NCBI GenBank assembly: GCA_947384285.1
Contig: CANDGI010000001.1
Location: 62,001 to 126,000 of the forward strand
Direction of reading: 5' to 3'
From: an uncultured Lachnospiraceae bacterium
GTDB lineage: Bacteria > Bacillota > Clostridia > Lachnospirales > Lachnospiraceae
DNA length: 64,000 nt
The translations under genes were made by a program, and so were the position numbers. The notes under the pieces were generated by a model that searched no databases, was not told the origin of the DNA, and saw only the letters and a list, made by a program, of their open reading frames with translations. How positions within the stretch are numbered: position 1 is the stretch's first letter; each line of letters opens with the position of its first letter. Positions 22,269-43,271 of the stretch are shown one piece after another.

Positions 22269-23362
22269 ATGAGAGAAAAAAGATTTCCTGTGGTTGTAGT
22301 GATTCCCTCGCTAAATCCTGACCAGAGGTTGGAAAAGACAATTGATGGACTAATTTTAGGGGGGGGGGTAAAAACGTAGATATAATTTTGGTTGATGATG
22401 GCAGTAGACAGGAGTGCCAGGTTTTTTTTGAAAACATTGAAAAGAAAGATGGCTGTACAGTTATCCATCATAAAGTGAATCGGGGGAAAGGCCGGGCATT
22501 AAAAACAGCATTTGAATATTATCTACATAATTTTGATACAGGTTATTATAAGGGGGTGGTTACTGCAGATGCAGATGGGCAGCATTCGACAGAAGACATA
22601 TATCGGGCAGCAGAATGTTTATGCGGATACGGACAAGAAGATGTTTTAGTGCTTGGAACCAGGAACTTTAATGAAGAACAAGTGCCATTTAAAAGCAGGA
22701 AGGGCAATAAAATTACTAGGAGAATTTTTCAGTTACTTTATGGGAAACATATCCAAGATACGCAGACGGGATTAAGAGCAATTTCTAATAAGTTTATTAA
22801 TAGGTGTGTATCTTTGGACGGAGAACGGTTCGAGTATGAAATTAATATGCTGATCGCAGCTGTATGTAGAAAAGTTAATATTGTTGAAGTGCCAATACAA
22901 ACGGTCTATTTTGAGGATAATAGAGAGACTCATTTTGACCCAATTAAAGATTCCATAAAAATATATAAAGTGATGTTTGCATCATTTTTTGTATTTGTTT
23001 GTTCTGGTTTAGTTTCAATGCTAGTAGATCAAGGGCTATTTGCAGTTTTACAAAAGTTATGTTTAAGCAGTATACCCAAAGTAGTTTCTATTCCAATAGC
23101 TACATTATTTGCTAGAATAGGATCCTCATACTTGAATTATTCCATAAATAAAAGAATCGTATTTAATGCTAAGGAAAAGAGAGCGATTGTACGCTATTAT
23201 ATTTTGTGCATCATACAGATGTTCACTTCTGCGATGTGTGTTTATTTGCTGTATACTATAAGCAGATTTGATACGTCCCTATTGAAAATTTTAGTGGATA
23301 CGGTTTTGTTTTTTGGGAGTTATTGTATTCAACGTATGTGGGTGTTTAAGGAGGGGCAATGA
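22269..23362 (+). CDS. GT2 (GtrB-like) fused to GtrA-like membrane domain, out of frame at a G10 tract
   Basis: The ATG with GGAAGG upstream starts MREKRFPVVVVIPSLNP, typical of polyprenyl-phosphate glycosyltransferases. After LILGGG the frame ends within a few codons because of a run of ten G. The protein resumes one frame away with KNVDIILVDDGS, TADADGQH, QDTQTGLRAIS and GERFEYEINML. It then has a GtrA-type four-span domain (residues about 230-355) with SYLNYSINKRIVFN. G8 or G11 would join the halves into about 365 residues, so as read the gene is OFF. The intact downstream part alone has only a TTG start at 22388. It would charge a lipid carrier with a sugar and flip it, feeding the next membrane protein. 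Confidence 0.85.
22359..22368 (+). repeat. G10 homopolymer that breaks the GT2-GtrA gene
   Basis: Ten G directly after the codons for LIL. The N-terminal frame and the C-terminal frame are joined only if the run is 8 or 11 long. This is the classic layout of a translational phase-variation switch. Confidence 0.9.
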
Positions 23363-25254
23363 TGGGGGCGATTTTGGGATTACTCGTGTTACTTTCTGCA
23401 GGCGGTTTTTATGCGGTAACATATTTTGGAAAAAAATATGAAGAAACCTTACCGATTTCTATATTTATAGGTATTGAAATTGTATTTATATTTGGTTTGT
23501 TCGACCAGTTAAAACTGGGGGTGTATGCTTTATTTGCTATTGCTATAATTTTATATATTCTGGCAATTTACCGAATCGTTATATTAAAAACATGGAAAGC
23601 AACTATCACAAATATGGTTACACCTGCGTTTTGTATTTTTATTATATGCAGTTTCGTTTATGCGATTGCTATTATGGGAAGAGTGGCATGGAGAAATGAT
23701 GAATTTTCTTTTTGGGCTGTTAGTGTAAAGAAAATGTTGTATTTGGATGCTTTTCATTGTGTACCAGAGGCAGAGCCATATTTTGCTGAATATCCACCAG
23801 GTATGCAGATATTTGAATATATTTTACAGGTTCTGAATGGAAAATTTTCTGAATGGCATCTTAACGTTTCTTATATGGTATATGTATTTGCATTGTTTGT
23901 GCCATTTTTGAAAGGCTTGAAATACAAAAATATTATGAAAAATGTCCTAATATCTGCTATGGTTTTTTGTGTTGGGACAATTATTTACTCAGATGCACTG
24001 GAAAATTTAATGGTTGATTTTGCATTAGGGACAACATTTGCGTTTGGCATGGCTCTTGTGTATTGCCCACCTTCAGAGGATGGAAAGTATGATTTTTTCA
24101 TTTTCCTAAATATAGCAATGGTTATCAATATGTTGGTTTTGATAAAATCAGCAGGAAAGTTTTTGGCATTTATTGTATTCATTGCGTTTGCCTTCAGCGT
24201 AATCAAAGAAGGGCAAGGGAAATTATGGTCAAAGTTAAAAGAGGAAAAAAAGGCGGTTGGATTGGGTGGTTTAATCAGCATACTGCCTATTATGACAGCC
24301 ATATTATGGAAGGTGAAATATACGCATTATCAAACGCATGTAGCATTTGAAGCAAATTATAATATAATGGAGTTTGTCCAAATATTATTGGGGAAAAATA
24401 GAGAAACCTATCGAAGTATGGTAAAAGATAACTTTATATCTTTTTTAATAAATGAAAGGGGTGAGATTGGATCCTTTTCAATGACAAACTTGCAATTATC
24501 AGTGTTGTTGATAGTGCTATGTTTATTTATCCATTTTAGTTATGTGCAAGTGGACAGTTTTAAACATGTTATTTCTATTAAAGTGATGTTGTTATTTTTA
24601 CCTATTTACTGGCTGGGGCTTATGGCTAGTTATATGTATACCTTTTCAGAAAAAGAGGGTGTGGCATTGGCTAGCATGCAAAGATATCTTAACATTTATT
24701 TCAGCGGTATTTTATTGATGGTAATTTTTTTGGTTTTGAAACGTAACTCATTTTATCAAAGTGATGTTTGGAAGTTTTATATAATGGCATTGTGTATACT
24801 TTGCTTTGTTTCTTGGACAGACGTAAATGAATTGCTTTCAGGAAAAGCGGTTGAGGCAAGTATAGAATTGCGGAAACCATTTTCGGTGTTGGAAGAGCAG
24901 ATTAAGGCGGATAAAAAAAATGCAGCACAGAAAGAAACTGTTCTATTAATATATAGAAGCGGCTATCCGCATACACCAGTAAATCAATTTAGCTATCTGT
25001 TATGGCCGGAATATATTGTTCCGTGGGAATGCAGTTATGGCAGTACGTTATTATTTGAGGGTGATGGCTATACGAAAATTTTTACGGACATACAATTTAA
25101 GGAACATTTGCAGGAATTAGGAGTCAAATATATTGCCATTGGATATGTTGACCAGAATTTTATTGATATGTATGGGCATATGTTCGAACAACCATTACAG
25201 AGTGGGCAGGTTTTTAAAGTGGAGGAAGGAGTTAAGGTTTTTAAACTGATGTAG
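23359..25254 (+). CDS. Polytopic membrane protein, probable GT-C-type glycosyltransferase (GtrC-like role)
   Basis: A 631-residue protein with about 11-12 membrane spans in the first 500 residues and a soluble C-terminal part of about 130 residues. After the third or fourth span there is WRNDEFSFWAVSVKKM. Its acidic pair in an outer loop is where GT-C enzymes hold their catalytic Asp/Glu. YPPGMQIFEYI follows as in GT39/GT-C loops. No named family was recognised with certainty. It overlaps the GT2-GtrA stop (ATGA, then a second ATG), so translation is coupled. The pair recalls gtrA-gtrB plus gtrC of serotype-converting operons, in which the third protein moves the sugar from lipid carrier to polymer. 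Confidence 0.7.
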   Translation: MMGAILGLLVLLSAGGFYAVTYFGKKYEETLPISIFIGIEIVFIFGLFDQLKLGVYALFAIAIILYILAIYRIVILKTWKATITNMVTPAFCIFIICSFVYAIAIMGRVAWRNDEFSFWAVSVKKMLYLDAFHCVPEAEPYFAEYPPGMQIFEYILQVLNGKFSEWHLNVSYMVYVFALFVPFLKGLKYKNIMKNVLISAMVFCVGTIIYSDALENLMVDFALGTTFAFGMALVYCPPSEDGKYDFFIFLNIAMVINMLVLIKSAGKFLAFIVFIAFAFSVIKEGQGKLWSKLKEEKKAVGLGGLISILPIMTAILWKVKYTHYQTHVAFEANYNIMEFVQILLGKNRETYRSMVKDNFISFLINERGEIGSFSMTNLQLSVLLIVLCLFIHFSYVQVDSFKHVISIKVMLLFLPIYWLGLMASYMYTFSEKEGVALASMQRYLNIYFSGILLMVIFLVLKRNSFYQSDVWKFYIMALCILCFVSWTDVNELLSGKAVEASIELRKPFSVLEEQIKADKKNAAQKETVLLIYRSGYPHTPVNQFSYLLWPEYIVPWECSYGSTLLFEGDGYTKIFTDIQFKEHLQELGVKYIAIGYVDQNFIDMYGHMFEQPLQSGQVFKVEEGVKVFKLM

Positions 25255-26025
25255 TAGTGTCCCATCTAGACGGTTTTTGGGAAATTGTAAAGAATCTTGT
25301 GTCAAAAAAATTTAACTGAATCTCTAATAAGTTCTCGCCGGAGATGAGAAGAGCATGATAAGAAGCAGCATTGCTTAAGGTATCAAATAAAAAGCTCTGC
25401 TATATAAATGATAATGGTGTAGGCAACCAAACTTAAGAGAACAGGTGTATCCTAAATGAGTGATTTAAGTTTAATATATGCAAAGTATAAGTGCGTGTAC
25501 ATGTTGTTTTGTCCCCAAATGTCACAGGAAAGTAATGTATGGAAAGCTTGGGTAGGAAGTAGGGGAGGTAAAGAGGGCGCGTAAATAAATATATAATGGA
25601 AGGATAAATGTCTCTTTTAAGAGGCTGTTAAGTCCAATGGTCATGGACTGATTTTGTAATTGGGAATTTCAGGAAGGAAAAGATGATCAAATATGGATCA
25701 ACATATATAATTGCTGGTTTGGGATGAGTTTCTTTATAGTTTTTATATTAAGATGGTTGATTATTTAAAAAAGCCTTAAATTTACAGGCATACAAGTGGG
25801 ATTTCAAGCTGAATTTACTACCAATTTACTGCTTTTGAGGGAGAGAGTCTTGATATGCTGCCCGGAACCCTGCCAGCCACTAGCACACAGCATAGAGAAA
25901 AAATAGATGAAAACGGAATACGACGCAGACACGGCGTTTCTCTATTCCTATACAGGAAGAGCGGGAACGCCGCTTTTTTATGCCTTCATGTTACGCAGTA
26001 GGGGTGAGAAGAGCCTTGTTATAAG
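25255..26025. other. Non-coding stretch between GT-C gene and IS66 cluster
   Basis: No credible gene on either strand; short open segments lack ribosome sites and recognisable motifs. It holds one strong terminator (listed). The part at 25855-25930 is richer in GC and structure, but no known riboswitch or RNA class was recognised. Confidence 0.5.
25931..25979 (+). terminator. Rho-independent terminator
   Basis: CGGCGTT pairs with AACGCCG, with a further inner pairing TTCCT/AGGAA, followed by six T. It probably ends the transcript that begins upstream of the GT2-GtrA pair or a small RNA from this stretch. Confidence 0.65.
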
Positions 26026-26070
26026 GTAACCGGATAGTGCGTACGTAGTAAACGGTAAATAGTGAGTACC
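26026..26070 (+). repeat. Two degenerate IS66-type left ends in tandem
   Basis: GTAAACGGTAAATAGTGAGTACC at 26048-26070 differs at two positions from the left terminal repeat of the IS66 copy just downstream. A more degenerate version (GTAACC-GGATAGTGCGTACG) lies at 26026-26045. They are the left ends of older IS66 insertions. The one at 26048 fits as the left end of the + strand copy whose genes resume at 29071. Confidence 0.65.
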
Positions 26071-26155
26071 GTGCATAAAATAAAAGATCACTGTATAATG
26101 GCCTTGAGAATCAATGTAAAGTAAACGGTAGATAGTGCGTACCTATACAAAACAA

Positions 26156-26188
26156 GAGCAAACCTGTATGATAGAAACAGATTTGCTC
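26156..26188 (-). terminator. Terminator of the IS66 copy 1 operon
   Basis: GAGCAAA pairs with TTTGCTC, with an inner CTGT/ACAG pairing. Read on the - strand it follows the tnpC stop and is followed by TTGTTTTG. Confidence 0.55.
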
Positions 26189-26194
26189 CAGTCT

Positions 26195-27817
26195 TTATTT
26201 CACTTCACGTTTATCAGGCTTTCGGCAATTCGCTGGCAGGCCTGGAGACCAGGGGAGCAGGTCATCCAGAAAACTGCGGTCTGTATCATCCAGATGTTTC
26301 GGGATCTCGGTAAGCAGATACTCAAAGTAATCATACGGTTTCAGATTGTTTGCTTTTGCGGTTTCCGCAATGCTGTAGATGATGGCGCTGGACTTTGCAC
26401 CGGCAATGGTATCGATCATCACCCAGTTTTTCTTGCCGATGCAGAATCCGCGGATGGACTGTTCCGCAGCGTTATTGTCCATCGGCACTTCGCCGTCGTC
26501 CAGGAACACTTTCAGGTATTTCTCCTGGTTCAGGGAATAATTGAAACCTTCCCACGTCTTGCTTTTCTGCGGCACTTTCGGGAGGTTTTCACGAACCCAT
26601 GTGAAATAAGCCTCCACCAGGGGCTTTACACTCAGCTGGCGGCGGTTTTTCCGTTCTTGTGCTGGGAGATCCTTTAGCTGTTTTTCCTCCCGGTAGATCG
26701 CCTGTATCATCGCCAGCGCAAGGTACGCGCGGCTGTCTTTCCGCTTCTGCTTAGGCAGGGCTTTCACTGCCTCGTCAAACCTCCGCCTCGCATGGGACCA
26801 GCACCCGGCAATCTTCAGATCTTCCCGTTCCTCTTCGATCGTATGATAAACCTGATATCCGTCCGTGACGCATACCCCGCTGAAATCCTTCAGGAATTCC
26901 CTTGGATGGCTGGCGTTGCGCGTCCTTTGGTATTCATACAGGACGATCTGGCATTCCGTATACATCCGTCCGGTGCGGTATACCCGCATGTAGCTTTTGC
27001 TCCCGGCAGGGCGGCCGTCCTTATTCACCTGCACGGGCGTTTCGTCTGCCTGCAGGACATGGTAGCCGTACAGCTTTTCGTGGAGGTGGTCATAAAGGAC
27101 CGCAAGGTAACGGTCTGCGCATTGGACCGTCCAGTTCGCCATGTTCTGTCTTGAAATGTGCAGGCCATAACGTTCAAACTCCTGTTCCTGCCGGTAAAGC
27201 GGGACGGCATTGACATATTTGGCGTTCATTACCGCTGCCTCCAGCGAAGGGGAAACAAGGCTCCCCCTTAATAAAGCCTGCGGATGCGGCGCTTTGATGA
27301 CCTCTTCCGTTTCTTTCCCGGCATATACCTTGACATGGTGTTCCTCCACTTCGATCTTCGCCGGGGTAAAGCTGTGCCTGCGGTATACTTCATCCGGGAG
27401 CTGTTTCCAGCCGTCTTTTCCAAATTTATCTTCCAGTTCCCCATCCGTCATGGAATGTTCTACCACAACTACCGGAACCCCCTCTAGATCCTCTTCCCGT
27501 TTCCCCTGTTTTTTCTTCGGTTTTGTGCGGGAAACACTTTCTACTTCCTCCTGTGTGTTTCCTTCTTCAGTGACGGCTTCAGATTCGTTAAAGAATACGA
27601 CCTTCCCATCCATTTCCATAAAGGAAACCTGGCCTTCGGCCTCATGTTTTTCCGATGACCTGCCAAACCGGTGCCGTTTTAGATCCGCCATCTGTTCCAA
27701 AACAAGCTGAAGCGTATGGTCGATATTTTCAAGCTGCTCCTGCTGCGACAGGAACAGCCGGATAAGCGTTTCCCTGTCAAGGCTGTTCAGTTGTTCTTCC
27801 GTATATTTTAATGCCAT
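26195..27817 (-). CDS. tnpC: IS66 transposase TnpC
   Basis: A 540-residue DDE transposase in the usual IS66 layout. An N-terminal leucine-zipper region (residues 10-50, followed by RFGRSSEKHE) precedes a zinc-finger-like domain and a helix-turn-helix region (SLVSPSLEAAVMNAKY). The catalytic domain has D in LQADETPVQV, D in VCVTDGYQVY and E in MDNNAAEQSIRGFCIGKKNW. The C-terminal IS66 domain ends with PKHLDDTDRSFLDDLLPW. It moves the element with TnpA and TnpB. No damage is visible, so this copy may be active. GC content is clearly above the surrounding capsule genes, marking recent arrival. Confidence 0.95.
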   Translation of the reverse strand: MALKYTEEQLNSLDRETLIRLFLSQQEQLENIDHTLQLVLEQMADLKRHRFGRSSEKHEAEGQVSFMEMDGKVVFFNESEAVTEEGNTQEEVESVSRTKPKKKQGKREEDLEGVPVVVVEHSMTDGELEDKFGKDGWKQLPDEVYRRHSFTPAKIEVEEHHVKVYAGKETEEVIKAPHPQALLRGSLVSPSLEAAVMNAKYVNAVPLYRQEQEFERYGLHISRQNMANWTVQCADRYLAVLYDHLHEKLYGYHVLQADETPVQVNKDGRPAGSKSYMRVYRTGRMYTECQIVLYEYQRTRNASHPREFLKDFSGVCVTDGYQVYHTIEEEREDLKIAGCWSHARRRFDEAVKALPKQKRKDSRAYLALAMIQAIYREEKQLKDLPAQERKNRRQLSVKPLVEAYFTWVRENLPKVPQKSKTWEGFNYSLNQEKYLKVFLDDGEVPMDNNAAEQSIRGFCIGKKNWVMIDTIAGAKSSAIIYSIAETAKANNLKPYDYFEYLLTEIPKHLDDTDRSFLDDLLPWSPGLPANCRKPDKREVK

Positions 27818-28091
27818 GCTGTCTTCTCCCGTTATCCTGATAGCCTTATGATACCATGGATACGGAATTTTTGCGAACCCGGCGCTGCCGGATGTCCGTC
27901 ATAATGGCTATGGTTAAAACAGCGGATACTGCCTTTGTACAATGCTGTTTCCAGAACCTTTTTCGGGAAGGAAAAGTATGTTTGCGTCCATTCTAGACTC
28001 TTTTATGGTGTGCGCAGTGGCCCCGCAGGGACGGGGCGGGACATTTTTTCAGCAGGAAAACAGTCTGAAAATTTCTCCGTTTTGCACAAAG

Positions 28092-28454
28092 TCATCCCAT
28101 GTATTCCGGCGGTTCCACCGGCCTGACGGATTTCTTGGGAGTAACTGTCAGGCCTTCCATCAGCCATCGGAACTGCTGCTGTGTCAGCAGGCGCACCTCC
28201 TCCGGACTGCGCGGCCATTGGAAGCAGCTTTCGGAGAGCCTCTTGTATAACAGGAGCCATCCGTCCCCCTCCCACACAAGCCCTTTGATGCGGTCTGTAC
28301 GCCTGCCGCAGAACAGGTAAAGTGTGTCGGGGACATATGGCCTGTTCCCGGTCTGCGCCTCCACCAGCGCCGCCAGCCGGTCCATGCCGGAGCGCAGATC
28401 GGTGTAACCGCAGACAATGTAGACAGCTTTAAAGCAGGTGGCATCATTGAGCAT
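28092..28454 (-). CDS. tnpB: IS66 accessory protein TnpB (Orf2)
   Basis: The 120-residue IS66 Orf2 protein starts MLNDATCFKAVYIVCGYTDL and contains YLFCGRRTDRIKGLVWEGDGW, the family core. The protein is required for IS66 transposition but its role is not known. The start chosen matches the family; the frame is open nine codons further upstream inside tnpA, overlapping it by about 11 bases, which suggests coupled translation. Between tnpB and tnpC is a gap of about 270 bp. Confidence 0.93.
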   Translation of the reverse strand: MLNDATCFKAVYIVCGYTDLRSGMDRLAALVEAQTGNRPYVPDTLYLFCGRRTDRIKGLVWEGDGWLLLYKRLSESCFQWPRSPEEVRLLTQQQFRWLMEGLTVTPKKSVRPVEPPEYMG

Positions 28455-28818
28455 CCCGCACCACCTTAAGGACTGTCGCAAGCAGCGGCATGGGTGTGGA
28501 TTCCGTTACGTGGACGGAAAAACCGTTTACAGAAACGGAAAGCCCCTGCTGGATACCGTTGCCGCTTTGCGTTTCCTGCTGTAGGAGGCAGGTGTTTACC
28601 GGGACGATCTGCTGTGTCGAAGCCTCCGGCGGAAGGTTTTCCAGACATGTCTGCCTTACACGGTGCAGCCTGTAATAGTAGTTCGCTTTCGTAATGCCGT
28701 GGCTGGCACACCAATCAACGACACTCATACCTGCGGGCCGGTTCTGGCATTCCCTGATCTGCTCTGCCCACTCTTTTAAACGGTATTGTACAGCTGCTGC
28801 TGTTGTTACTGAGTTCAT
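28444..28818 (-). CDS. tnpA: IS66 accessory protein TnpA (Orf1)
   Basis: A 124-residue IS66 Orf1 protein. Its N-terminal helix-turn-helix segment has WAEQIRECQNRPAGMSV, WCASHGITKANYYYRLH and then a variable linker. The C-terminal part, VNGFSVHVTESTPMPLLATVLKVVRD, is the conserved tail. It probably binds element ends. It is the first gene of the element on this strand and starts about 100 bp inside the right terminal repeat. Confidence 0.92.
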   Translation of the reverse strand: MNSVTTAAAVQYRLKEWAEQIRECQNRPAGMSVVDWCASHGITKANYYYRLHRVRQTCLENLPPEASTQQIVPVNTCLLQQETQSGNGIQQGLSVSVNGFSVHVTESTPMPLLATVLKVVRDAQ

Positions 28819-29070
28819 AGACTTACCTCCGTATAACGGTATTAAAAGTTAAGCCTTAACTTTTAATACTGATGATAGAAATATAGTCTATTGTCACATA
28901 TTTTTCTCTCGTAGTCGAGGTACGCACTATCTACCGTTTACGAATCAATTATGGTTTTCAAAGTCATTTCCAGTTTCAATAGCTACTATGAAAACTGCAC
29001 ATTAGTTTTCACAGTAGATGTACATGACTTTGAAAACTCTTACCAGTTTTAAAAGTGAGGTGTACAGCAG

Positions 29071-29421
29071 ATGTCAGATTTAAAGCATGATGTAATCGCA
29101 CAACGCTGGGTGGCGTTGATACAGGAGCGCCTGGACAGCGGTATGACCATTAAAGAATGGTGCCTTGAGAGAAATATCAAAGAATCCCAGTATTATTATT
29201 GGCTAAAAACACTCCGCAAAGAAGAATTGGCTGCGGCGGATCAGGAGCGTCAGGTTTCCCCTTTTGTGGAACTGCCGGATATTTGCAGGGAACAGGAACC
29301 TGCGCAGGGAAAACCCGCAGCCATTATCCGAAAGGGGGGGGGTATAGCAATAGAAGTCACAGAATCCGCTTCTGCGGGATTCATTGCAAAGATCATGGAG
29401 GCGCTGTCCTATGCTCAATGA
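29071..29421 (+). CDS. tnpA: IS66 accessory protein TnpA (Orf1), copy 2, with G9 tract
   Basis: A 116-residue Orf1 protein with RWVALIQERLDSGMTIKEWC, then ESQYYYWLKTLR, and the tail GIAIEVTESASAGFIAKIME. Only the tail and helix-turn-helix part resemble copy 1, so the two elements belong to different IS66 subtypes. A run of nine G encodes KGGG just before the conserved tail. The frame is open as read, but a one-base slip would remove the tail and could change coupling to tnpB, which starts inside the end of this gene. Confidence 0.9.
   Translation: MSDLKHDVIAQRWVALIQERLDSGMTIKEWCLERNIKESQYYYWLKTLRKEELAAADQERQVSPFVELPDICREQEPAQGKPAAIIRKGGGIAIEVTESASAGFIAKIMEALSYAQ
29334..29342 (+). repeat. G9 homopolymer in tnpA of IS66 copy 2
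   Basis: Nine G in the current ON phase. Copy 1 has no such run at the same place. Confidence 0.85.
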
Positions 29422-29770: not shown

Positions 29771-29843
29771 CGAAAGTACTGAATTTTGATGGGGCCTGCA
29801 AAAAAATATGGCAGGACTATCCAGCCTGTGCTATAATTGCCGC

Positions 29844-31457: not shown

Positions 31458-31503
31458 AGACTGGAGTAAACCTGTATGATAGAAACAGATTTGCTCCAGT
31501 CTT
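31457..31503. terminator. Palindromic terminator joining two convergent IS66 copies
   Basis: AAGACTGGAG and CTCCAGTCTT form a perfect 10-bp repeat around an inner CCTGT/ACAG pairing. It stands exactly between the stop of the + strand tnpC and the stop of the - strand tnpC relic, and can work in both directions. Confidence 0.6.
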
Positions 31504-33234: not shown

Positions 33235-33249
33235 GAGTCTGGTTTATAT

Positions 33250-34584
33250 ATGAGTAGGGAACAAGAGAGAATCCGTAGGAAATTAGAAAAAAATCCAATT
33301 ATGGAATGCAATAAGGTCAGACAAAAGCATTGCCCAAACTTGTTTCAGGATTTTGCAGACACAAAAGATCCAAGGAATTTAAGCTATGCAGATTATTCCA
33401 ACGGGGAGCTGCTGGGAACTGTGTTTTACAAAGGAATTGCAGGAATAGAAAGCATGCAGTCCATGACTTATGAATTTAACAAAGAAAAAGTCGTGAAAAA
33501 TTTATACCGGTTTATGGGAAAAAAGGAGAAAACATATCTCCCGCATGCAGTTACAATTAATGAATATTTAGAACGGATGGAGCCGGAGGAACTGCAAAAG
33601 GCACAGCAGAAACAGGTATACGGACTGCTCCGCAGTAAAGTCTTTTATGATGCAAGATTTATGAAAAAATGGCTGGTAATCGTAGACGGGACACAGACTT
33701 ATTCCGGGGGCCGGAAACTCAATGACGGGTGTTTGGAACGCCATTACAATAAGGGAACAGAAGAAGAAACAGTGAATTACCATTGTGGTGTACTGGAAGC
33801 AAAAATTGTGCTTGGAGAGAGCCTGGTTGTGAGTATAGCCAGCGAATTTATAGAAAATAACGGGGAAGATGCTGAAAGACAGAAACATATGAATGAAGAA
33901 GAAAAGAAGCAGGACTGTGAAACAAAGGCATTCAAAAGACTGGCTGGAAAGTTGAAAAAAGCATTTCCGAGACTGCCCATCATACTACTGGCGGACAGCC
34001 TGTACGCATCAGAACCGGTAATGGATATCTGCCGGGATAACGGCTGGGAATCCATCATCCGTTATAAGATGGGAAGCATCCCGAGCATCACGGAGGAATA
34101 TGAAAAAATCCCTGAAAAGGAGACGTCAGGGCATGCAGAATTCGTTAATGAGATTGATTATAATGGAAAGTCAGTAAACATGCTGCGGTTCTGGGAAGAA
34201 AAGGTTGTAAAAGGGGCTCCCACGCGTGTGGGGTTCCAGTGGCTGACAAGCATAAGGATAACAAAAAAGAATGCAGGGAAGCTTGCGGAAGCAGGAAGAA
34301 AACGCTGGAAGATAGAGAACGAGGGATTTAACCGGCAGAAGAACTGGCAGGGGGACATCACCCATGCCTGCAGCTGGAATGCCACTGCGATGAAAAACCA
34401 TTACCTGATGGCGCAGATATCGGACATGGTAAAGCAGCTGTATGAATGGTTCTTTTTAAAGAAGAATGGGATAAAAAAGAAGCAAAAAAATATATCTTCC
34501 GAACTGTTAGAAAGCTTTGCCCAGCAGATAACAGAAACAGAAGATATATCCCGGAATGATACGCTCAGCGTACCAGTCAACTGA
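33250..34584 (+). CDS. DDE transposase (IS4-like)
   Basis: A 444-residue protein. The catalytic triad can be read as D in VIVDGTQTYSGG, D in ILLADSLYASEPV and E in RKRWKIENEGFNRQKNW, with the last in the Y/R-x2-E-x6-K-like arrangement of IS4-type enzymes. HACSWNATAMKNHYLMAQI near the end is typical of a clostridial transposase group. The frame is intact and GC content is higher than the flanks. AAGGAG precedes the ATG. No terminal repeats could be assigned beyond the upstream palindrome, so element limits are unknown. Confidence 0.85.
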   Translation: MSREQERIRRKLEKNPIMECNKVRQKHCPNLFQDFADTKDPRNLSYADYSNGELLGTVFYKGIAGIESMQSMTYEFNKEKVVKNLYRFMGKKEKTYLPHAVTINEYLERMEPEELQKAQQKQVYGLLRSKVFYDARFMKKWLVIVDGTQTYSGGRKLNDGCLERHYNKGTEEETVNYHCGVLEAKIVLGESLVVSIASEFIENNGEDAERQKHMNEEEKKQDCETKAFKRLAGKLKKAFPRLPIILLADSLYASEPVMDICRDNGWESIIRYKMGSIPSITEEYEKIPEKETSGHAEFVNEIDYNGKSVNMLRFWEEKVVKGAPTRVGFQWLTSIRITKKNAGKLAEAGRKRWKIENEGFNRQKNWQGDITHACSWNATAMKNHYLMAQISDMVKQLYEWFFLKKNGIKKKQKNISSELLESFAQQITETEDISRNDTLSVPVN

Positions 34585-34800
34585 ATTAAGTATAGCAAAG
34601 GAAGTGATGCCTGCCAAGAGGGAAATGAAAAAATCTAATATTTAATATATCCACAAAAAGCAAAAATGGTGCAGGAATATAGCCATAGGATGTGGATAAC
34701 TTTTCAGATCCCACGTGAAACCCTAGATAAAGAAATTTAGAGTGGAAAAGGCAGGATATAAAGAAATTTACCTTTCAAGACTGATATTTTTATGTTTAAC
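34585..34800. other. Spacer between transposase and phase-variable promoter
   Basis: No gene, hairpin or repeat of note was seen. The flank may include the unrecognised right end of the transposase element. Confidence 0.4.
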
Positions 34801-34828
34801 TTGACAAATTTAGTGGGGGGGGTAAACT
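34801..34828 (+). promoter_or_regulatory. Promoter with G8 tract in the spacer (predicted phase-variable)
   Basis: Consensus TTGACA, a 16-bp spacer whose last eight bases are G, and TAAACT as -10. The arrangement is the same as at 40396, where the spacer is also 16 bp. A change of one G would move the spacer to 15 or 17 bp and alter strength. It faces a GT2/GT-C pair that begins 510 bp downstream. Confidence 0.65.
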
Positions 34829-34997
34829 AATTTGAGATTAGTAGGATTAAACTGTACCCTTTGTCAAGGACAAATTTTTTGACCCCATGGGTATAGGGTC
34901 ATATTCCCTGTCCATAAGTGTGGTATTTAGTTGTCGTTTGGTTCTTCGTATTCTGGGATGGCGTAATATTTCCATTGGTAACTGATATTAGCCTGTT

Positions 34998-35166
34998 AGA
35001 GCGTGTTTGAAAATTGCTTTCTCCAAGATGTACGTCACAGTTTGTGGGAAATCTGTGTCCAAATGAAGGGTGCGTAGTGGGCTTGGGCTATGTAACCTGA
35101 ATTTGGCGCAAATATCGTGCAAAGTGGGGCGTGCAGATTGTGGGAATGAATTTTTAAATACGCTCT
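34998..35166. repeat. MITE-like element
   Basis: Imperfect terminal inverted repeats, AGAGCGTGTTTGAAAATTGC on the left and AGAGCGTATTTAAAAATTCA (reverse strand) on the right, agree at 18 of 23 positions over their full length. They enclose 169 bp with no coding capacity. No certain target duplication is visible. It sits in the leader between the G8 promoter and the GT2 gene. Confidence 0.5.
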
Positions 35167-35339
35167 GGTATATATTTGCAATTCATTTTTGGGATATGTT
35201 AATTAGGAAAAGTATTTTGATTTATTAAAGTAGAAATAGTTATTCAAAAATTATTAAAAGTATAATCGCGGAAACTCCGTGAGATTTTTGTAAAAATAAA
35301 TATTATGGAATTTTTTATAAGATTGTGAGGAAGGAAAAA

Positions 35340-36077
35340 ATGGGAGAATGTTTGTATATTGTTGTACCAGCATATAATGAGGTTGAAAATATTCCAAGGT
35401 TAATTGAGAATTGGTATCCAATAGTAGAAAAATATAGTGATAGTGATAAATCGCGTCTTGTTATTATAGATGATGGGAGTAAGGATAATACATATAATCT
35501 TATTTGTGAATATGCCAAAACTAGGCCTATGATTGTTCCTATTACGAAAACCAATGGCGGTCATGGGGCAACAGTATTGTTTGGTTATAGATATGCTATT
35601 CAAAATGGCGCAGATTATATTTTTCAAACTGATGCAGATGGTCAGACAGATCCTTTAGAGTTTGAGCAATTTTGGGATTTAAGAAATGAATATAGTGCTA
35701 TTATTGGGAATCGATCTACAAGGCAGGACGGTTTCTCTCGTAAGTTTGTGGAAGGAACATTGTTAGCAATTCTTAAAATAATTTTTGGTGTAAAGATACC
35801 TGATTCAAATGCACCATTTCGGCTTATGAGAAAAGAATTACTTGAAAAATATATTAAAAAGATGCCAGATGATTTTAATCTTCCAAATGTAATGTTTACA
35901 ACATATTTTAGTTATTTCCATGAAAAAATAAAATTTTTAGATATTACATTTAAGTCTCGGCAAGGAGGCAAGAATTCTATTAATTTTAGGAAAATTACCA
36001 AAATTGGGTGGAAAGCTCTAAGGGATTTTTATAATTTAAAGAAAAACATTGATGTTTGGGAACAGGAACGAAGATAA
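35340..36077 (+). CDS. GT2 polyprenyl-phosphate glycosyltransferase (DPM1/GtrB-like)
   Basis: A 245-residue GT-A enzyme. IVVPAYNEVENIPRLIENW opens the fold, DDGSKDNT holds the UDP-sugar, and KTNGGHGATVLFGYRYA and QTDADGQTDP supply the metal-binding DxD. SNAPFRLMRKELL is typical of dolichol- or undecaprenyl-phosphate sugar synthases. There is no C-terminal membrane domain, unlike the GT2 enzymes at 40472 and 49255. GAGGAAGG precedes the ATG. A GT-C-like gene follows after 30 bp, so the two probably load a carrier and then transfer the sugar outside. Confidence 0.9.
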   Translation: MGECLYIVVPAYNEVENIPRLIENWYPIVEKYSDSDKSRLVIIDDGSKDNTYNLICEYAKTRPMIVPITKTNGGHGATVLFGYRYAIQNGADYIFQTDADGQTDPLEFEQFWDLRNEYSAIIGNRSTRQDGFSRKFVEGTLLAILKIIFGVKIPDSNAPFRLMRKELLEKYIKKMPDDFNLPNVMFTTYFSYFHEKIKFLDITFKSRQGGKNSINFRKITKIGWKALRDFYNLKKNIDVWEQERR

Positions 36078-36107
36078 ACATTTATAATTAAATGATGGAG
36101 ATTATGT

Positions 36108-37628
36108 ATGCTTTTTGAAAATTGTAATCTGGGGAAAAAAGGAAAATTATTCAATCATATTCTGGAGAAACTATTGATAGGGATTTTTATTTTTTTTATT
36201 TCATTTATATTTGCGCTTCAAAGTAGCAATGATATATGGCATACTGGAATTACTTATACGGATTCAAGTGTCTTTAAATATGTTGCAAGGGTGATAATTG
36301 CTGGTGGGATGCCATATCGTGATACTTTTGATCATAAAGGTCCTTTAATATATTTGATAGATGTAGTTGGTATTTTGATTGATAAGGAGAGGGGAATATG
36401 GATTCTTGAATTATTAACGATTTGTTCAACATTTGTTTTTTTATATATGATTGCCAGATTAAAGTGCAATAAACTTGTTTCGTTATTAATATTATTACTT
36501 TCTTCAGCTTCATTATTTAAATATTTTGAGGGTGGAAATTTAGTAGAGGAATTTGCATTGCCTTTTATTGCTATTTCCATTTTCATATTTTTAGATTATT
36601 TTTTGAATAGTCGGATCAATGTGTGCCGTCTGATTGTTTGTGGATTTTCTTTTGGGTCAGTATGCATGTTGAGAATAAATATGGTAGCTATATGGTTTGT
36701 AATGTGTTTGGGTGTTTTGTATCAAAATATTCGAAAGGGCAATTATAAAGAATTATTAAGGTTTTGTTATTTTTTTATGATTGGTATAGCTATTATATGT
36801 GTGCCTATTATAATATGGTTGATTTATAATCATGCTTTTTTGGAATTTATTGATGATTATTTTGTGTTTAATAATTTGTATTCCAAAGCAATGGGAATGG
36901 GATCAGAGATGAAGATTACAATGCGAGGACAAGCATTTATTACCTTTCTTAATGATGGTGTTGTGCTGTTTTCAATATGTATTTTGATTTACAACTATAT
37001 TAGGGAAAAACAGATTTTTGATTTTTTTTATTTAGCATATATATTTGTTAATGTGATGACAGTTGCATTGTCTGGGAGAAGCTTTATGCATTATGGGATG
37101 GTTTTGGTTCCTGCTTTAGTTTATCCTTTTGCATGTTTAGGAAAATGGTGTAATAATGATAAAAAAGGAAATATGGAGATACCTTTATTTTTAATTTATA
37201 TGATGGTGGTTTTTGCACTTCCTAGTTGGCTTAATGCTGCTAATAATGCTCTTCAGGAGTATGCAGGAAGGGATGGAAACTATATTGATGATTTGACGTT
37301 ACAGGTTACAAATATTGTAAAAGAGAATTCGACAGAGAGTGATGAAATTATTGTATGTGGAAATTGGAATATTATTTATAATATGGCTGAACGTTTTTCT
37401 GCTTCAAAGTACTCTTACCAAAATATGCCCTGTACGATAGATGCGAATAGGCTGGAGGAATATTGTACAGAAGTAGAACAAAAGCAACCCAAGATAATTG
37501 TTTTGACATTAACAAATGGATCCCTTTATAATCGTACGATGGAAATTGTAAATAGGTGTGGATATAAAGAAATTTTTAACTATCCTGGAAGCGAGACACA
37601 AGGATCTGTATGTGTGTATGGAAAATAA
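36108..37628 (+). CDS. GT-C-type membrane glycosyltransferase (GT39-like)
   Basis: A 506-residue protein with about 10-11 spans followed by an extracellular domain of about 120 residues. The first outer loop carries YTDSSVFKYVARVI, then GGMPYRDTFDHKGPLIYLID. This is the hallmark of a large group of Firmicutes GT-C enzymes, in which the loop Asp residues are catalytic. It would use a lipid-phosphate sugar made by the GT2 just upstream and add it to a surface polymer or protein. It shares the GT2 operon and the G8 promoter region. Confidence 0.8.
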   Translation: MLFENCNLGKKGKLFNHILEKLLIGIFIFFISFIFALQSSNDIWHTGITYTDSSVFKYVARVIIAGGMPYRDTFDHKGPLIYLIDVVGILIDKERGIWILELLTICSTFVFLYMIARLKCNKLVSLLILLLSSASLFKYFEGGNLVEEFALPFIAISIFIFLDYFLNSRINVCRLIVCGFSFGSVCMLRINMVAIWFVMCLGVLYQNIRKGNYKELLRFCYFFMIGIAIICVPIIIWLIYNHAFLEFIDDYFVFNNLYSKAMGMGSEMKITMRGQAFITFLNDGVVLFSICILIYNYIREKQIFDFFYLAYIFVNVMTVALSGRSFMHYGMVLVPALVYPFACLGKWCNNDKKGNMEIPLFLIYMMVVFALPSWLNAANNALQEYAGRDGNYIDDLTLQVTNIVKENSTESDEIIVCGNWNIIYNMAERFSASKYSYQNMPCTIDANRLEEYCTEVEQKQPKIIVLTLTNGSLYNRTMEIVNRCGYKEIFNYPGSETQGSVCVYGK

Positions 37629-37649
37629 GGACTATTTTTTCCATTCTCG

Positions 37650-37805
37650 GCTTTGACGGCAGAAAGTAAACTATTATGAACAGAAATTTTTCACCCCTTT
37701 GCAGTTGCAAAGGGGTGAAATGCTGGTCAATCTTACTAATATCATTTTCAAAATCTTGAAATGGCTGTATCTGAAACAAATGAATTGCTTCAAATATTGT
37801 AAAGT
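37650..37805 (+). pseudogene. Short relic of the same transposase as at 389-1541
   Basis: The segment keeps the order CTATTATGAACAGAAATTTTT, ATGCTGGTCAA and CTTGAAATGGCTGTATCTGA, all closely matching the C-terminal end of the first relic. About 200 bp between them is deleted. A small palindrome (CCCCTTTGCAGTTGCAAAGGGG) marks the deletion site. Confidence 0.6.
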
Positions 37806-37875
37806 GTTTTCATTTTATGAAATTTTTTGCTCTGAATACAATTAACGTTGAAGGAAATATATTTTGTATTTATTT

Positions 37876-39344
37876 ATATTTGTTAGGTATCTCCCCAGCG
37901 TACTGTCTCTTGACCCTGTTCCCGCTCCGCTACCGGATCCACGCTTTTTCACAAGATCCTTCGGCTTTTTCTCTGCAATTGGGGCAGAAGGTGGATTTGC
38001 AACTGCGAGAGGATATTCACCCGTGATGCGGAACTGGTAGTATTCATTGGGCGACAGCTTGGCCAGTTGCTACTGGTAACGATCATTGTTATAGTAATCA
38101 ATGTAATCATCTACGATCACTTTAATTTGGATAAACTCCGTTGCTTCCTTGAGATCATCCTTTACAGAGTCCTTCATGTGGTCAAAAAGGCTTTCCTGCG
38201 GCGCATTGTCCCAGTAGTTGCCCTTTGTAGGACAATGACTGGCAAGCCTTTTATCATGGAGGCTCTCAATCAACCTGTAACTCGTATAATGACATCCCTG
38301 GTCACTGTGAAGGATGGTCTCCTGGCTGAGTGAAACGCCATGGTCTCTGATGAGGGTATCTACTGTCTCAAGCACGAAATCTACCTCCAGCGATCTACTG
38401 ACCACATATGCCAGCACCTGTTTTGTAAAGGTGTCAAGTATCGTAGACAAGTAAGCAAATGTCCTCTTATAGAGCAGATACGTAATGTCTGTAAGGAGAG
38501 CTATTCTCGGACCGTAACTTTCAAACTCTCTCTGCAAGGGATTGCCGGCGACTTTGTTTGTCTTTAATGCCTTTGCCATGCGGCACCGGTAAGCATTTGC
38601 TTATGGGGCATACAAGCCCGTGCTTTTTCATCAGCCGTCTGATTTTCTTGAGGTTCATCGTCATGGGAGGATTCTTGTGGAGCAGGTTCATGTATATGGT
38701 TTCTGTACCTTTCTTGTAACCACGTATCTTATAGGCTTCAAGGATAAAATCAAAATCCCTGCGGTTCTGTTTCTTGGCTGCTTCCCGTACTGGGGCAGCT
38801 TTGAGCCAGGCATAGTAGCCGCTCCGTGATACACTGGCTGTTTTTCACAGTTCCTTAACAGGCCGGTGGTTACTGCTGTCTTTGACTGTTCTGTTAATGA
38901 CTTCAAACACACAGAAAGATTCATTCATAAGCAAAGCACCTGCCTTCTTGCAGTTCTGCTTGAAGAAGTTTTTTAAAAACTCAATTTCCTACCGGAGGTA
39001 TTCCACCTCTTCCTGCAGCTTATTGACACGCTTCTCCGTAGTCTGGGCATTTCCATCTGGAGACTTCCCGGATCTGGGCATGGCACTTCGCGGAGTCCTC
39101 TAGGGCTGTGGTATTGTTTTTTTATGGTATGTGCGATGCCCCATATGCGCTCTTTGCCAAGGATGTCTGCGGGATAACCGTATTGTTCCAGAATCTGGCG
39201 CGGTATGGCACCGGACTGGTATTTCTCCCAGAAGAGTTCTTTGAACTCTTTGGTAAAGGACAGTATATGTGGAGTAACTGCAAAAATGTACTTATTGTCC
39301 CTAAGCATCTCCACTTTCTCTGGTGTGAACACTTTCTTGCTCAT
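37876..39344 (-). pseudogene. Decayed IS3-family transposase (orfA and orfB)
   Basis: On the - strand orfA starts MSKKVFTPEKVEMLRDNKYI, with SFTKEFKELFWEKYQSG, and loses its frame near its coiled-coil end. OrfB is broken upstream. It then has the rve domain with TDITYLLY, HSDQGCHYTS (D of DDE) and WDNAPQESLFDHMK (E of DDE). A nonsense codon after YNNDRYQ interrupts it; QLAKLSPNEYYQFRI and a long degraded tail continue. Enough is left to identify an IS150-type IS3 element, but several stops and frameshifts exclude activity. Confidence 0.8.
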
Positions 39345-39499
39345 GATGCACATCCTCCTGTTCTTAAGATAGAGTACCATACGAAAGCAGCTTTGTGTCC
39401 ATTATCTTGGGCAAAAGATTTGAGCCATTGTATCCTGTGTCCAATCAGATGGATAGACAGAATCAGAATTGAGGTATATGTCCATTAGGAGGGATACTA

Positions 39500-40330
39500 A
39501 AAACTTTTCTTGTCCACGCCTATGGGTTTATTAAATCACCAGCTGGATTTCCTGATTTTTTCGTTTCTGGTTGGGGTGTCTTGCCATTTTCCGTTGTCAG
39601 TTGTCAATTTTATAGCATCCTGGTAAATGACCATGTTTTCTCTTGCCGGGATGTAGACATCTACTTTGTGAGTTGTTTTCAGATAGTTGTTCAATTCTCA
39701 TGACAGGTATCCTCTGTCCTTAATCAGCATGTTGTTTTCGTAGAAACAGGAAGTGCTACGCAGCGTTTTCCGACATTATTCCATAGCATGAGTTTTGAGT
39801 GTGCTGAATATATTTTTTTCTGAAATTCTAGAGTCATCCAGGACATTTCTCAAAACCCCAAGCTTACATTTGTGCGTTGTTTTCCAATCTATCTTTCATA
39901 CAGAAGAATTTTCATAATTATCATTATCAAGATTGCTAAGAACCTTTCATACAGCCCAGTATGTGGTTACACAGCTGTAGCTTCAGTTTTTTGGACAGAT
40001 ATTCCTGGACATAATGCTTATAGAAAGACAACCATTATCCATTGCTGTGCTTCAAAAGGAGCTTGCGCATGACACTTTCTGAAGAAGCTCTTTATTTACA
40101 ACCCGTTTATTGTCCAAGAGATTTCAGTCCAGTTTTGCCAGTAGTTCCTTTTTCATCACCGTAAAAGGGACATCTGTAAAGCTGGTCTTATGTCTTAGTT
40201 TGGTTGCAACAGCCAGACACAGTAGGAAATCAAAAGAGACATGGTTGATATACCTACGCTTATCTGGAAAAACCTGTGAGAGAATATCTGTATCATAAAT
40301 CACATTTGTTTTGTCATAATGTAAATCTTC
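39500..40330 (-). pseudogene. Decayed transposase (family A, second copy)
   Basis: On the - strand the N-terminal region (ILSQVFPDKRRYINHVSFDF, CLAVATKLRHKTSFTDVPF) resembles the relic at 32605-32978. Farther on, NMLIKDRGYLS, a stop, ELNNYLKTTHKVDVYIPA and MVIYQDAIKLTTENGKWQ read as the C-terminal half of the same type of protein. Several stops and frame changes exclude function. The relic ends about 70 bp ahead of the G9 promoter. Confidence 0.6.
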
Positions 40331-40395
40331 TAATTCTTTATAGAAAGTTTTTTACTACTTGGATAAAAGACTAATTGAAACATTGCTCTTTATAG

Positions 40396-40423
40396 TTGAC
40401 AAAATACCGGGGGGGGGTAAAAT
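40396..40423 (+). promoter_or_regulatory. Promoter with G9 tract in the spacer (predicted phase-variable)
   Basis: Consensus TTGACA, a 16-bp spacer ending in nine G, and TAAAAT as -10 (five of six consensus bases). The GT2 start is only about 50 bp downstream. G10 would give the optimal 17-bp spacer. The layout matches the promoter at 34801 and the poly-spacer switches known from Neisseria porA and opc. Confidence 0.75.
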
Positions 40424-40471
40424 CAAGTAAGAATTTTTACAAATATTTTTTAATATTAGGGGAAATTAAGA

Positions 40472-41428
40472 ATGGATAAAATTGCAGTATTGATTCCGTG
40501 TTATAACGAAAGCAAAACCATAGGGAAAGTAGTGAGTGACTGGAAGAAGGAATTGCCGGAAGCGGCAGTATATGTATATGATAATAATTCTATAGACAAA
40601 ACAGCGGTAATTGCCAGCGAGGCTGGCGCAATCGTCAGGCATGAATATATGCAGGGAAAAGGCAATGTGATACGACGGATGTTTCGGGAGATAGATGCAG
40701 AAGTATATATCATGGTAGATGGGGATGATACATATCCAGCTGAATATGGGCGGCAGATGGCGGAATTGGTATTGACAAAAAAAGTGGATATGGTAGTTGG
40801 TGACAGGCTGTCGTCCACATATTTTCAGGCAAATAAAAGGCCGTTTCATAATTTTGGCAATTCTTTGGTCAAGGGATGTATCAATCTGCTTTTCCACTCT
40901 GAGATAAAAGATATAATGACAGGGTATCGTGCCTTTAGTTATTTATTTGCCAAATCATTCCCTGTTTTGTCAAAAGGGTTTGAGATTGAGACGGAAATGA
41001 CAATACATGCGCTTGATAAGAACATGTATATGGAAAATGTGGTCATTGATTATCGTGACAGGCCGGGCGGCAGTGAATCCAAACTCAATACATATTCAGA
41101 TGGATTTAAAGTGCTGCACACGATTGTAAAATTATTTCGGAATTACAGGCCGCTTATGTTCTTTGGGAGCATTGCTGGGATATTGGCCGCCCTATCATTA
41201 GTATTTATGGTTCCAGTAGTAAGTATTTACCTAAATACTGGGAAAGTCCCTAATTTTCCAACGCTGATCGTTTGTGGGTTTACGATGTTAGCAGCACTGC
41301 ATTCTCTGTTTGCAGGGTTACAGCTTCAAAATGCGGTGCAGAAAAATAGGCAGGACTTTGAATTTCATTTGCTGTTGGTAGAAAAGATGCAGGGAAGGCG
41401 TATAGAGAGGGAAGAAAATGAGCAGTAG
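40472..41428 (+). CDS. GT2 polyprenyl-phosphate glycosyltransferase with two C-terminal membrane spans
   Basis: A 318-residue enzyme beginning MDKIAVLIPCYNESKTIGKV. VYDNNSIDKTA is the nucleotide-binding turn, MVDGDDTYPAEYG supplies the DxD-type metal site, and DIMTGYRAFS and GFEIETEMTIHAL follow in the order typical of the DPM1-like family. Two hydrophobic spans (about residues 230-255 and 265-290) anchor the C-terminus. It would make a lipid-phosphate sugar for the membrane protein that overlaps its end by 11 bases. AGGGGA stands 8 nt before the ATG, and the G9 promoter is just upstream. Confidence 0.92.
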   Translation: MDKIAVLIPCYNESKTIGKVVSDWKKELPEAAVYVYDNNSIDKTAVIASEAGAIVRHEYMQGKGNVIRRMFREIDAEVYIMVDGDDTYPAEYGRQMAELVLTKKVDMVVGDRLSSTYFQANKRPFHNFGNSLVKGCINLLFHSEIKDIMTGYRAFSYLFAKSFPVLSKGFEIETEMTIHALDKNMYMENVVIDYRDRPGGSESKLNTYSDGFKVLHTIVKLFRNYRPLMFFGSIAGILAALSLVFMVPVVSIYLNTGKVPNFPTLIVCGFTMLAALHSLFAGLQLQNAVQKNRQDFEFHLLLVEKMQGRRIEREENEQ

Positions 41429-43271
41429 GAACAAGGGAAAAGTTATCAAGGGGAAATCTAGTGCAGTATTTGCTGCAACGCTTATGGCAGCATTTTATGC
41501 AGTGTCCTATCTATTAACTGAATTTTCTGGAATTAATACAGTTGAATATTCGTTCGTTTATGTTTTAGCATTTATTGGAATTGGCTGTGTTTTAAAATTT
41601 GGGATTCAATTTAGGGATGTGTTCATAGAGGATAAATGGTTATGGATATTGGCAGTTTTACTGTCGGTATCCACAATCACAGGCTTTTTTTTTGATCATG
41701 GATTGCCATTTGAAAATATGAAAATAAAAGAATGTATCAATTATTTGATTTGTATTATTGGTTTTGTGCCTTTATGCAGGGTTTTGTTTGTTGTATTTTT
41801 TTACTATATGCACCAATGGTCAAGCAGCCAGCGCAGCAGCACACTTGGCAGCTATCATGGCACAAAGACTTTTTTCATGGCATTCATAGTTATATTAATA
41901 TGCTGGCTTCCTGTTTGGCTGGCTTATTACCCTGGTCTTTGGAATTATGATCCAGGGCAGGCGTGGGAATTTGTAAATAAGCGTTATGGCAAACACCATC
42001 CGCTTATACATACTCTGTTGCTGGGATTTTGTTATTCTATAGGTTTGGAGCGGAATAACTGCAATGTCGGGGTCATTTTATATGATGTGATTCAAATGCT
42101 TATCATGGCAGGGATATTTGCTTATACGTATACATATATTTGCAAGCATATTTATAGCAGATTTTTTCGGGCGGTGGTTTTGGCTTTTTATGCTATTTTC
42201 CCAATAAATTCTATACTTGCCATAAGTTCCACAAAGGATGTGCTGTTTTCTGGGTTAGTGTTGTTATGCATGGTTCTTTCTATGCAGATAGCAGAAATTG
42301 ATGCTGTGCCAAAGAGGAGGAAGCTGGCAGTTGTCCTATTACCTTTGTGTGTACTGATGCTGTCATTTAGGAATAATACTGTTTATGCTTTTTACATATT
42401 TATGATTTGCCTGTGTGTGTTTGTGTGTACAAAAGATTCTGAAATAAAAATGCATTTTCAGGTGGCAGGGACAAAAATTTTACTATACTGTACTTGCTGT
42501 CTCATGCTGTTTAAATTGTTCGATATAGGGCTGGCAAAGTATTTGGATGCTTCAAACGGTTCTGCTAGAGAGATGTTTAGTGTTACCAGCCAGCAATTTG
42601 GAAGAATTTATACTGCTGTGAATGAAAAAGGGACGGATTTGCAGACACTGGAAATTATCAATTCGTATTATGATATGAGCAAGTCAGGATATAATCCCCG
42701 TTTGTCTGATCCTATGAAAGGAACGCTTAATGTGGAAAACCGAGAGGATATTATAAAGTATTTGAAGGATTCCATAAAACTGTTTTGCAAATATCCTGTG
42801 GTTAGTTTAGATTCATTTCTTTATTTGACCGAGGGAAGCTGGAATATCAATGATATATCGCATGCAAATATATACGGGGCAGGATTGGAAGGGAGGCAGG
42901 GATATCTTCTTACAGATGTGAAAAATGGTTTTAACATTATTCATAAGAGCAAGTTTTCTAAATTAGAAATATTTATGGAACGTGCATTTTCTGATAATGA
43001 ATATCAAACGTGGCCTGTTTTATCCTTGCTGTTTTCACCCGCATTATATTTTTGGATATTAATCATATGCACTCTGGTGTTCTTTAAGACGAATTCATAT
43101 GGCCTGTTGCTGCTTTCTAGTTTTCTGTGGGGACTGTATCTGACAATATTGCTGGGGCCTTGTATTTTGATACGTTATTTCTATCCATTCGTTGTATGCA
43201 GCCCGCTTCTGGTATGCATGGCGAATTGCTCAATTCGTAAACAACGAGAGGGTGAAAAGTCTCGTGGATGA
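41418..43271 (+). CDS. DUF6020-like polytopic membrane protein, probable GT-C enzyme
   Basis: A 617-residue protein with about 12-13 membrane spans. After the fourth span comes LAYYPGLWNYDPGQAWEF and KHHPLIHTLLLG, the signature outer loop of the DUF6020-type family, with an Asp in a position like the catalytic residue of GT-C enzymes. SSTKDVLFSGLVLL is a second conserved part. A soluble insertion spans residues 380-520. The function of the family is not established. Pairing with the GT2 by overlap suggests transfer of a lipid-phosphate sugar to a surface acceptor. A strong terminator follows. Confidence 0.8.
   Translation: MSSRNKGKVIKGKSSAVFAATLMAAFYAVSYLLTEFSGINTVEYSFVYVLAFIGIGCVLKFGIQFRDVFIEDKWLWILAVLLSVSTITGFFFDHGLPFENMKIKECINYLICIIGFVPLCRVLFVVFFYYMHQWSSSQRSSTLGSYHGTKTFFMAFIVILICWLPVWLAYYPGLWNYDPGQAWEFVNKRYGKHHPLIHTLLLGFCYSIGLERNNCNVGVILYDVIQMLIMAGIFAYTYTYICKHIYSRFFRAVVLAFYAIFPINSILAISSTKDVLFSGLVLLCMVLSMQIAEIDAVPKRRKLAVVLLPLCVLMLSFRNNTVYAFYIFMICLCVFVCTKDSEIKMHFQVAGTKILLYCTCCLMLFKLFDIGLAKYLDASNGSAREMFSVTSQQFGRIYTAVNEKGTDLQTLEIINSYYDMSKSGYNPRLSDPMKGTLNVENREDIIKYLKDSIKLFCKYPVVSLDSFLYLTEGSWNINDISHANIYGAGLEGRQGYLLTDVKNGFNIIHKSKFSKLEIFMERAFSDNEYQTWPVLSLLFSPALYFWILIICTLVFFKTNSYGLLLLSSFLWGLYLTILLGPCILIRYFYPFVVCSPLLVCMANCSIRKQREGEKSRG

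Follow-up and report, generated by a model that had tools for sequence, protein, structure and literature searches.

The window, by which we mean the whole stretch of 64,000 nucleotides (64 kb) that was analysed, comes from a Lachnospiraceae assembly of 3.23 Mb in 74 contigs (83% complete) and consists of two polysaccharide gene groups, between which lie transposase genes and three GT2/large-membrane-protein pairs, here called modules 1 to 3. An earlier note on this DNA had described these pairs, each with a poly-G tract, and a fourth pair with no tract and a dead GT-C-type partner. For the three, the open reading frames (ORFs) and the G10, G8 and G9 tracts are all present, and the description of the fourth pair was likewise accurate, as no run of at least eight Gs lies at its GT2 gene or partner and the partner gene is broken up into two ORFs, of 154 and 198 aa, which overlap. 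Runs of at least eight Gs start at five places in the window (10954, 22359, 29334, 34815 and 40409) out of ten distinct runs in the whole genome, which places half of them within 2% of its length. None of the five outside the window fits the promoter-spacer pattern TTGACA-N-G8+-TAnnnT, which was matched twice in this genome, both times in the window, while the reversed pattern gave no match. The features are as follows.

~1950-22055: polysaccharide group 1, with sugar-nucleotide, Wzx/Wzy-like and formyltransferase genes
10954-10963 (+): G10, in frame in ORF 10765-11514
17415-18860: Wzx-like gene, within the window, outside the modules
22269-22379 (+): 5' fragment of the module 1 GT2 gene, from ATG to an early stop past the tract
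22359-22368 (+): G10 in the module 1 GT2 coding sequence
22388-23362 (+): remainder of the module 1 GT2 gene with fused GtrA_DPMS_TM; Pfam GT2 (partial) and GtrA_DPMS_TM
23359-25254 (+): module 1 large membrane protein, 12 hydrophobic segments, putative GT-C type
29334-29342: G9, in frame in the small ORF 29071-29421, beside an IS66-like (by eye) transposase gene
34801-34828 (+): module 2 promoter TTGACA-N8-G8-TAAACT, spacer 16, -10 at 34823-34828
34815-34822 (+): G8 in the module 2 promoter spacer
34998-35168 (no strand assigned): dispersed hairpin element, MITE-like, between the promoter and the module 2 gene
35266-35282 (+): terminator-like hairpin with T-rich tail, upstream of the module 2 GT2 gene
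35325-36077 (+): module 2 GT2, GTG start, ATG at 35340; Pfam GT2
36108-37628 (+): module 2 large membrane protein, 10 hydrophobic segments, putative GT-C type
40396-40423 (+): module 3 promoter TTGACA-N7-G9-TAAAAT, spacer 16
40409-40417 (+): G9 in the module 3 promoter spacer
40472-41428 (+): module 3 GT2, Pfam GT2, two C-terminal hydrophobic segments, DPM-synthase-like
41418-43271 (+): module 3 DUF6020 membrane protein, Pfam DUF6020, 13 hydrophobic segments, putative GT-C type
49204-50274 (+): fourth GT2, intact
50335-51319 (+): remnants of the fourth pair's membrane partner, in two overlapping ORFs
~51600-60423: polysaccharide group 2, with ABC exporter, GlfT2-like and pyruvyltransferase genes

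The hydrophobic segments listed, 10 to 13 per membrane protein, come from a simple hydropathy count; it is these and the pairing of the genes that suggest the putative GT-C type. The remnants of the fourth pair's partner gave a single Pfam match, to PMT_2, partial and below cutoff, and an Rfam scan of the window returned no match at gathering scores. From 44657 to 49013, between the modules, a gene for a TIR-like protein (assigned by eye) is followed by three uncharacterised genes, a stretch that is possibly a defence island.

In module 1 translation from the ATG at 22269 crosses the G10 tract and ends after 36 codons, and the GT2 domain goes on in another frame; the frame is broken as assembled, and the module appears to be off in this assembly. 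The membrane protein encoded at 23359-25254 has no Pfam match, the loose threshold included. The genus holds ten homologue loci of the GT2 gene, nine at 36-45% identity and one a short match at 55%, and some of these copies contain one stop within the matched stretch. Because none of the ten carries a run of at least seven Gs in the GT2 gene, the module 1 tract looks like a local addition, and in the five homologues with a readable N-terminal region the gene starts without a tract. Three genus members have a G9 run in a membrane-protein gene, apparently the same one in each, that neighbours GT2-GtrA homologues (L158 3571, L159 3597, L160 356).

The promoter of module 3 ranks second by consensus matches (11/12) among 38 promoter-like sites in 34500-43400, a number of sites that does not exceed the mean of shuffled sequence (33.6, sd 5.3). 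Its GT2 matches dolichol-phosphate-mannose synthase in a PDB search. When a species-genome collection was searched with this GT2 and the best 80 of 318 relatives were kept, the two closest of these 80, also the nearest named relatives at this gene, were Lachnospiraceae bacterium A2 (84%) and strain 3-2 (82%). The putative switch is present in both orthologues: each has a poly-G spacer promoter, with G9 and a spacer of 16 in A2 and G10 and a spacer of 18 in strain 3-2, and the tract starts 68 and 72 nt upstream of the GT2 match, respectively, compared with 63 nt in the window. The other 78 of the best 80 have no poly-G spacer promoter within 400 nt upstream, five of these loci holding less than 400 nt; one has a bare G7 run upstream. 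The DUF6020 partner is only 25% and 26% identical in A2 and strain 3-2, and a neighbour recognisably like it is found in 27 of the 80 loci, at 21-27% identity. If the partner sets the destination of the sugar, the expected logic would be just this, a carrier-charging enzyme that is conserved and a transferase that changes fast. A PDB search with a profile of the DUF6020 relatives returned receptor-type noise only and no glycosyltransferase. Within the coding sequence of the DUF6020 protein a T9 run (41685-41693) is a possible further slippage site. Relatives carry G10-G12 tracts within coding sequence or next to it, close to glycan genes and also close to a DUF6020 homologue (L095 1257, 4443; L220 3205, 4209, 6056; L224 2425; L236 5938).

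The module 2 promoter, with 10 of 12 consensus matches, is joint third of the same 38 sites (tied with three others). A gap of ~500 nt separates it from its gene and contains the hairpin element and the terminator-like site. The element is 171 nt long, and segments of it recur on about ten further contigs of this genome. Its whole length folds into a single hairpin (-81.9 kcal/mol, z -9.9, RNA fold), of which a simple inverted-repeat search detects the inner arms only. Terminator-like sites number four in the region against 6.4 expected in shuffles. In the PDB the GT2 matches transferases of the undecaprenyl-phosphate aminoarabinose pathway and sll0501, which we take to be GtrB; its partner at 36108-37628 has no Pfam match, the loose threshold included. 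Two further members of the genus also have the two genes side by side, though in divergent orientation (with this genome, 3 of 29), at 66-70% identity for the GT2 and 46-48% for the partner, and since they have been kept as neighbours there, the data support their being a functional pair. Neither of these homologue loci has a run of at least seven Gs. The proposal that module 2 is switched through its promoter spacer thus stands in part: the promoter with its G8 spacer is intact, but the distance and the two interposed structures weaken its link to the gene. Because the hairpin element and then the terminator-like site separate promoter and gene, poly-G promoter control is the least certain of the three for this module. 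The module 2 membrane gene has a perfect-consensus promoter (TTGACA-18-TATAAT) at its end (37503-37532).

The promoter pattern recurs well beyond this genome. Across 41 genomes (this one, its genus and its order) it gave 17 sites in nine, and the reversed pattern, used as the control, gave none. When the spacer could take any length from 8 up, 397 genomes of the family gave 57 sites in 39, compared with one site for the reversed pattern, three sites in three genomes for a C-tract version and two for the reverse of the latter. A search of the genus that allowed G7 returned 15 sites (control 0), each with at least eight Gs; they lie in 7 of the 29 genomes, and the other 22 have none. Sites are rarer in the wider class, occurring in 6 of 278 genomes when the order is left out and in 8 of 291 overall. 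The total spacer measures 16-20 in 45 of the 57 family sites, and positions 4 and 5 of the -10 hexamer, which the pattern leaves unconstrained, are A in 42 and 45 of the 57, matching the consensus. Site counts far above those of the reversed and C-tract controls, together with this spacer clustering and -10 consensus, indicate from sequence that TTGACA-G8+-TAnnnT is a genuine promoter design, specific to one strand and enriched in the family. Some of the 12 of 57 sites with spacers outside 16-20 are chance matches or lie far from the optimum.

The tract length of orthologous promoters differs between species. It is G9, G9 and G10 at module 3, G11 and G9 upstream of orthologous ABC ATPase genes (81% identity), and G10 and G12 upstream of a large membrane protein in two genus members at ~80-85% DNA identity. 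In the last pair the rest of the spacer differs too, with totals of 19 and 18, and the G12 copy is without ~120 nt and, in the stretch read, has no clean frame close to its start. These between-species differences fit slippage, and slippage within a population is a further step that they do not prove.

Many of the first genes downstream of poly-G promoters start with signal- or lipoprotein-like leaders. By a crude hydropathy rule, which probably mislabelled at least one control gene (MurA-like by eye) as secreted, the first gene is of the secreted type at 26 of 43 poly-G sites and at 3 of 27 ordinary consensus promoters (Fisher p 4.6e-5). The 43 were classified from 55 family sites, the two of this genome being left out, after eight with a spacer outside 14-21, two inside ORFs and two without an ORF were dropped; the 27 come from 30 control loci, three of them inside ORFs, which are part of 388 sites in eight genomes. 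One genome, G014, which we take to be A2 because both have the same gene at an identical coordinate and identical promoter strings, has five poly-G promoters within 26 kb of a glycan locus. Three of them lead DUF6056 with GT2, YfhO with GT2, and GT2 with DUF6020; the fourth leads a stretch that holds an MBOAT gene and also a HAD match, weak and below cutoff, and the fifth a small protein that has a membrane segment but matches nothing in Pfam. With E 1.4e-136, the YfhO match is, at the level of sequence, the tie between these cassettes and characterised Gram-positive transmembrane glycosylation.

We estimate a probability of about three in four (0.74) that the three pairs of the window are transmembrane glycosylation modules, each under a poly-G contingency tract. 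The GT2 would load a lipid-phosphate carrier with a presumed sugar, and the partner membrane transferase, of putative GT-C fold, would move that sugar to a surface polymer, the likely acceptor, outside the membrane. All three modules have a Pfam GT2 domain, and modules 2 and 3 have synthase-type matches in the PDB. Candidates for the flippase are the GtrA domain fused in module 1 and the Wzx-like protein of 17415-18860; within modules 2 and 3 no GtrA- or Wzx-type flippase was found. Slippage of the tract in module 1 would shift the reading frame of the GT2 and turn the module on or off. In modules 2 and 3, where the tract fills the spacer between -35 and -10, slippage by one G would shift the spacer around its optimum and move transcription up or down. 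The division into one frame-type and two promoter-spacer tracts, as the earlier note had it, is borne out by the positions of the tracts, the orthologous promoters and the family-wide signature. The architecture, its recurrence, its strand specificity and the clustering of spacers are observed; slippage in cells and an effect on expression are what we infer. For Lachnospiraceae and some neighbouring Clostridia as a whole, we lean towards the view that a large contingency system, apparently not described before, is built on one promoter design (TTGACA-N6..10-G8..12-TAnnnT) and switches surface genes at random, glycan-decorating GT2/GT-C cassettes being one cargo that can be exchanged and a clone being a population of mixed surface types.

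The G runs might instead be fixed structural parts of strong promoters, acting for example through the conformation of the spacer, with no switching at all. The clustering of spacer lengths at 16-20 agrees with this, as do the spacers of 16, 16 and 18 kept by module 3 and its two orthologues and the near-constant totals of the G10/G12 pair, in which the rest of the spacer compensates. Orthologues nevertheless differ in tract length, the downstream genes are often of the surface type, as at known contingency loci, and a promoter needs no pure G run, given that only two TTGACA-TATAAT sites among the matches listed for three genomes carry one; we consider such a fixed role unlikely. A narrower form of switching, limited to module 3 and, by frame, module 1, would make the module 2 promoter a relic stranded behind the hairpin element and the terminator-like site. 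We hold this to be possible, at appreciably less than even odds: the ~500-nt gap with its two structures and the homologous pairs without a tract in two genomes speak for it, whereas both hexamers and the tract of that promoter are intact and some other poly-G promoters also have leaders of 300 nt or more.

A reading of the tracts as chance homopolymers, or as errors of assembly in a region rich in IS elements, is highly improbable. The assembly is in 74 contigs at 83% completeness and another G9 lies in a transposase-linked ORF, but the controls gave one and three sites against 57, and the promoter-gene arrangement of module 3 recurs in separate assemblies. Chance homopolymers were set aside on the reversed-pattern and C-tract searches, and an origin of the tracts as parts of IS elements was set aside as only the G9 at 29334, one of the five in the window, is in a transposase-linked ORF.

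Gtr is a prophage three-gene operon for O-antigen glucosylation (gtrA-gtrB-gtr(type)). The modules resemble it in joining a conserved carrier-charging enzyme to a variable transferase partner, but they have no separate gtrA and other transferases, and no prophage link came to light, a search of 50,697 phage records with 34500-43300 giving no near match. A plain Gtr operon was set aside, the modules being two-gene pairs with GtrA only as a fusion in one. The label Gtr-like, which the earlier note had used, is loose, Gram-positive CsbB/GtcA/YfhO-type multi-component systems being nearer. These carry out GT-A/GT-C sugar decoration in Listeria, Bacillus, Lactococcus and others, and share with the modules a GT-A-fold lipid-phosphate sugar synthase and a large membrane protein, here of putative GT-C type (PMC8035078). 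The GtrA-type domain of module 1 and the YfhO behind a poly-G promoter in G014 are further likenesses. The modules differ in that the partners are DUF6020 proteins or have no assigned family, the GtrA domain occurs only in module 1, fused to the GT2, and each module adjoins a poly-G tract; the string 'phase vari' has no hits in the main text of PMC8035078.

Homopolymers in the -35/-10 spacers of Neisseria fetA and porA give transcriptional phase variation, and two promoters here likewise have a homopolymer between -35 and -10 whose length sets their spacing (PMC5320596). Unlike fetA and porA, the present design is found in many genera of Lachnospiraceae, has G on the coding strand and precedes glycosylation modules and secreted proteins. 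In Bifidobacterium breve poly-G slippage switches sortase-dependent pili (PMC9187656), which likewise combines a G tract with a surface structure in a Gram-positive gut commensal, replication slippage being our supposition here; the mechanism there is a frameshift, whereas promoter-spacer tracts are the widespread form in our survey. PMC2831843 deals with homopolymers within coding genes, and the part of it available to us has no hits for 'firmicutes' or 'clostridium' and no report of poly-G promoter switching in Lachnospiraceae; PMC6437147, in its available part, treats poly-G in Campylobacter, with Lachnospiraceae only as affected microbiota and no report of promoter switching there. Our literature search, which was thin on subscription journals and bioRxiv and is weak evidence of absence, found no report of poly-G promoter switching in Lachnospiraceae, nor one combining spacer homopolymers, G-tract slippage and GT-A/GT-C systems in this family. 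What appears to be new is the combination in Lachnospiraceae of elements each known elsewhere, from Neisseria, Bifidobacterium and Gram-positive glycosylation. Multi-locus homopolymer switching has mostly been described from Gram-negative pathogens. If our reading is true, a single clone of a common gut commensal would be a mixture of surface types. The promoter signature can be scanned for in any genome of the Lachnospiraceae, which makes stochastic surface variation in such commensals directly testable, and it yields candidates for variation in phage receptors and antibody targets.

Independent switching of the three modules had been taken to allow up to eight surface types. Because another G10 lies in frame in ORF 10765-11514 (+), that number may be an undercount. 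This ORF, polysaccharide-deacetylase-like by eye only and without a Pfam match, is possibly a fourth switched locus, and it sits between genes for a UDP-sugar dehydrogenase and a hexapeptide transferase. Elsewhere in the same genome (L024 1501-1511, C15:59663) a C11 run lies shortly upstream of a promoter-like site, TTGACA-18-TATCAT.
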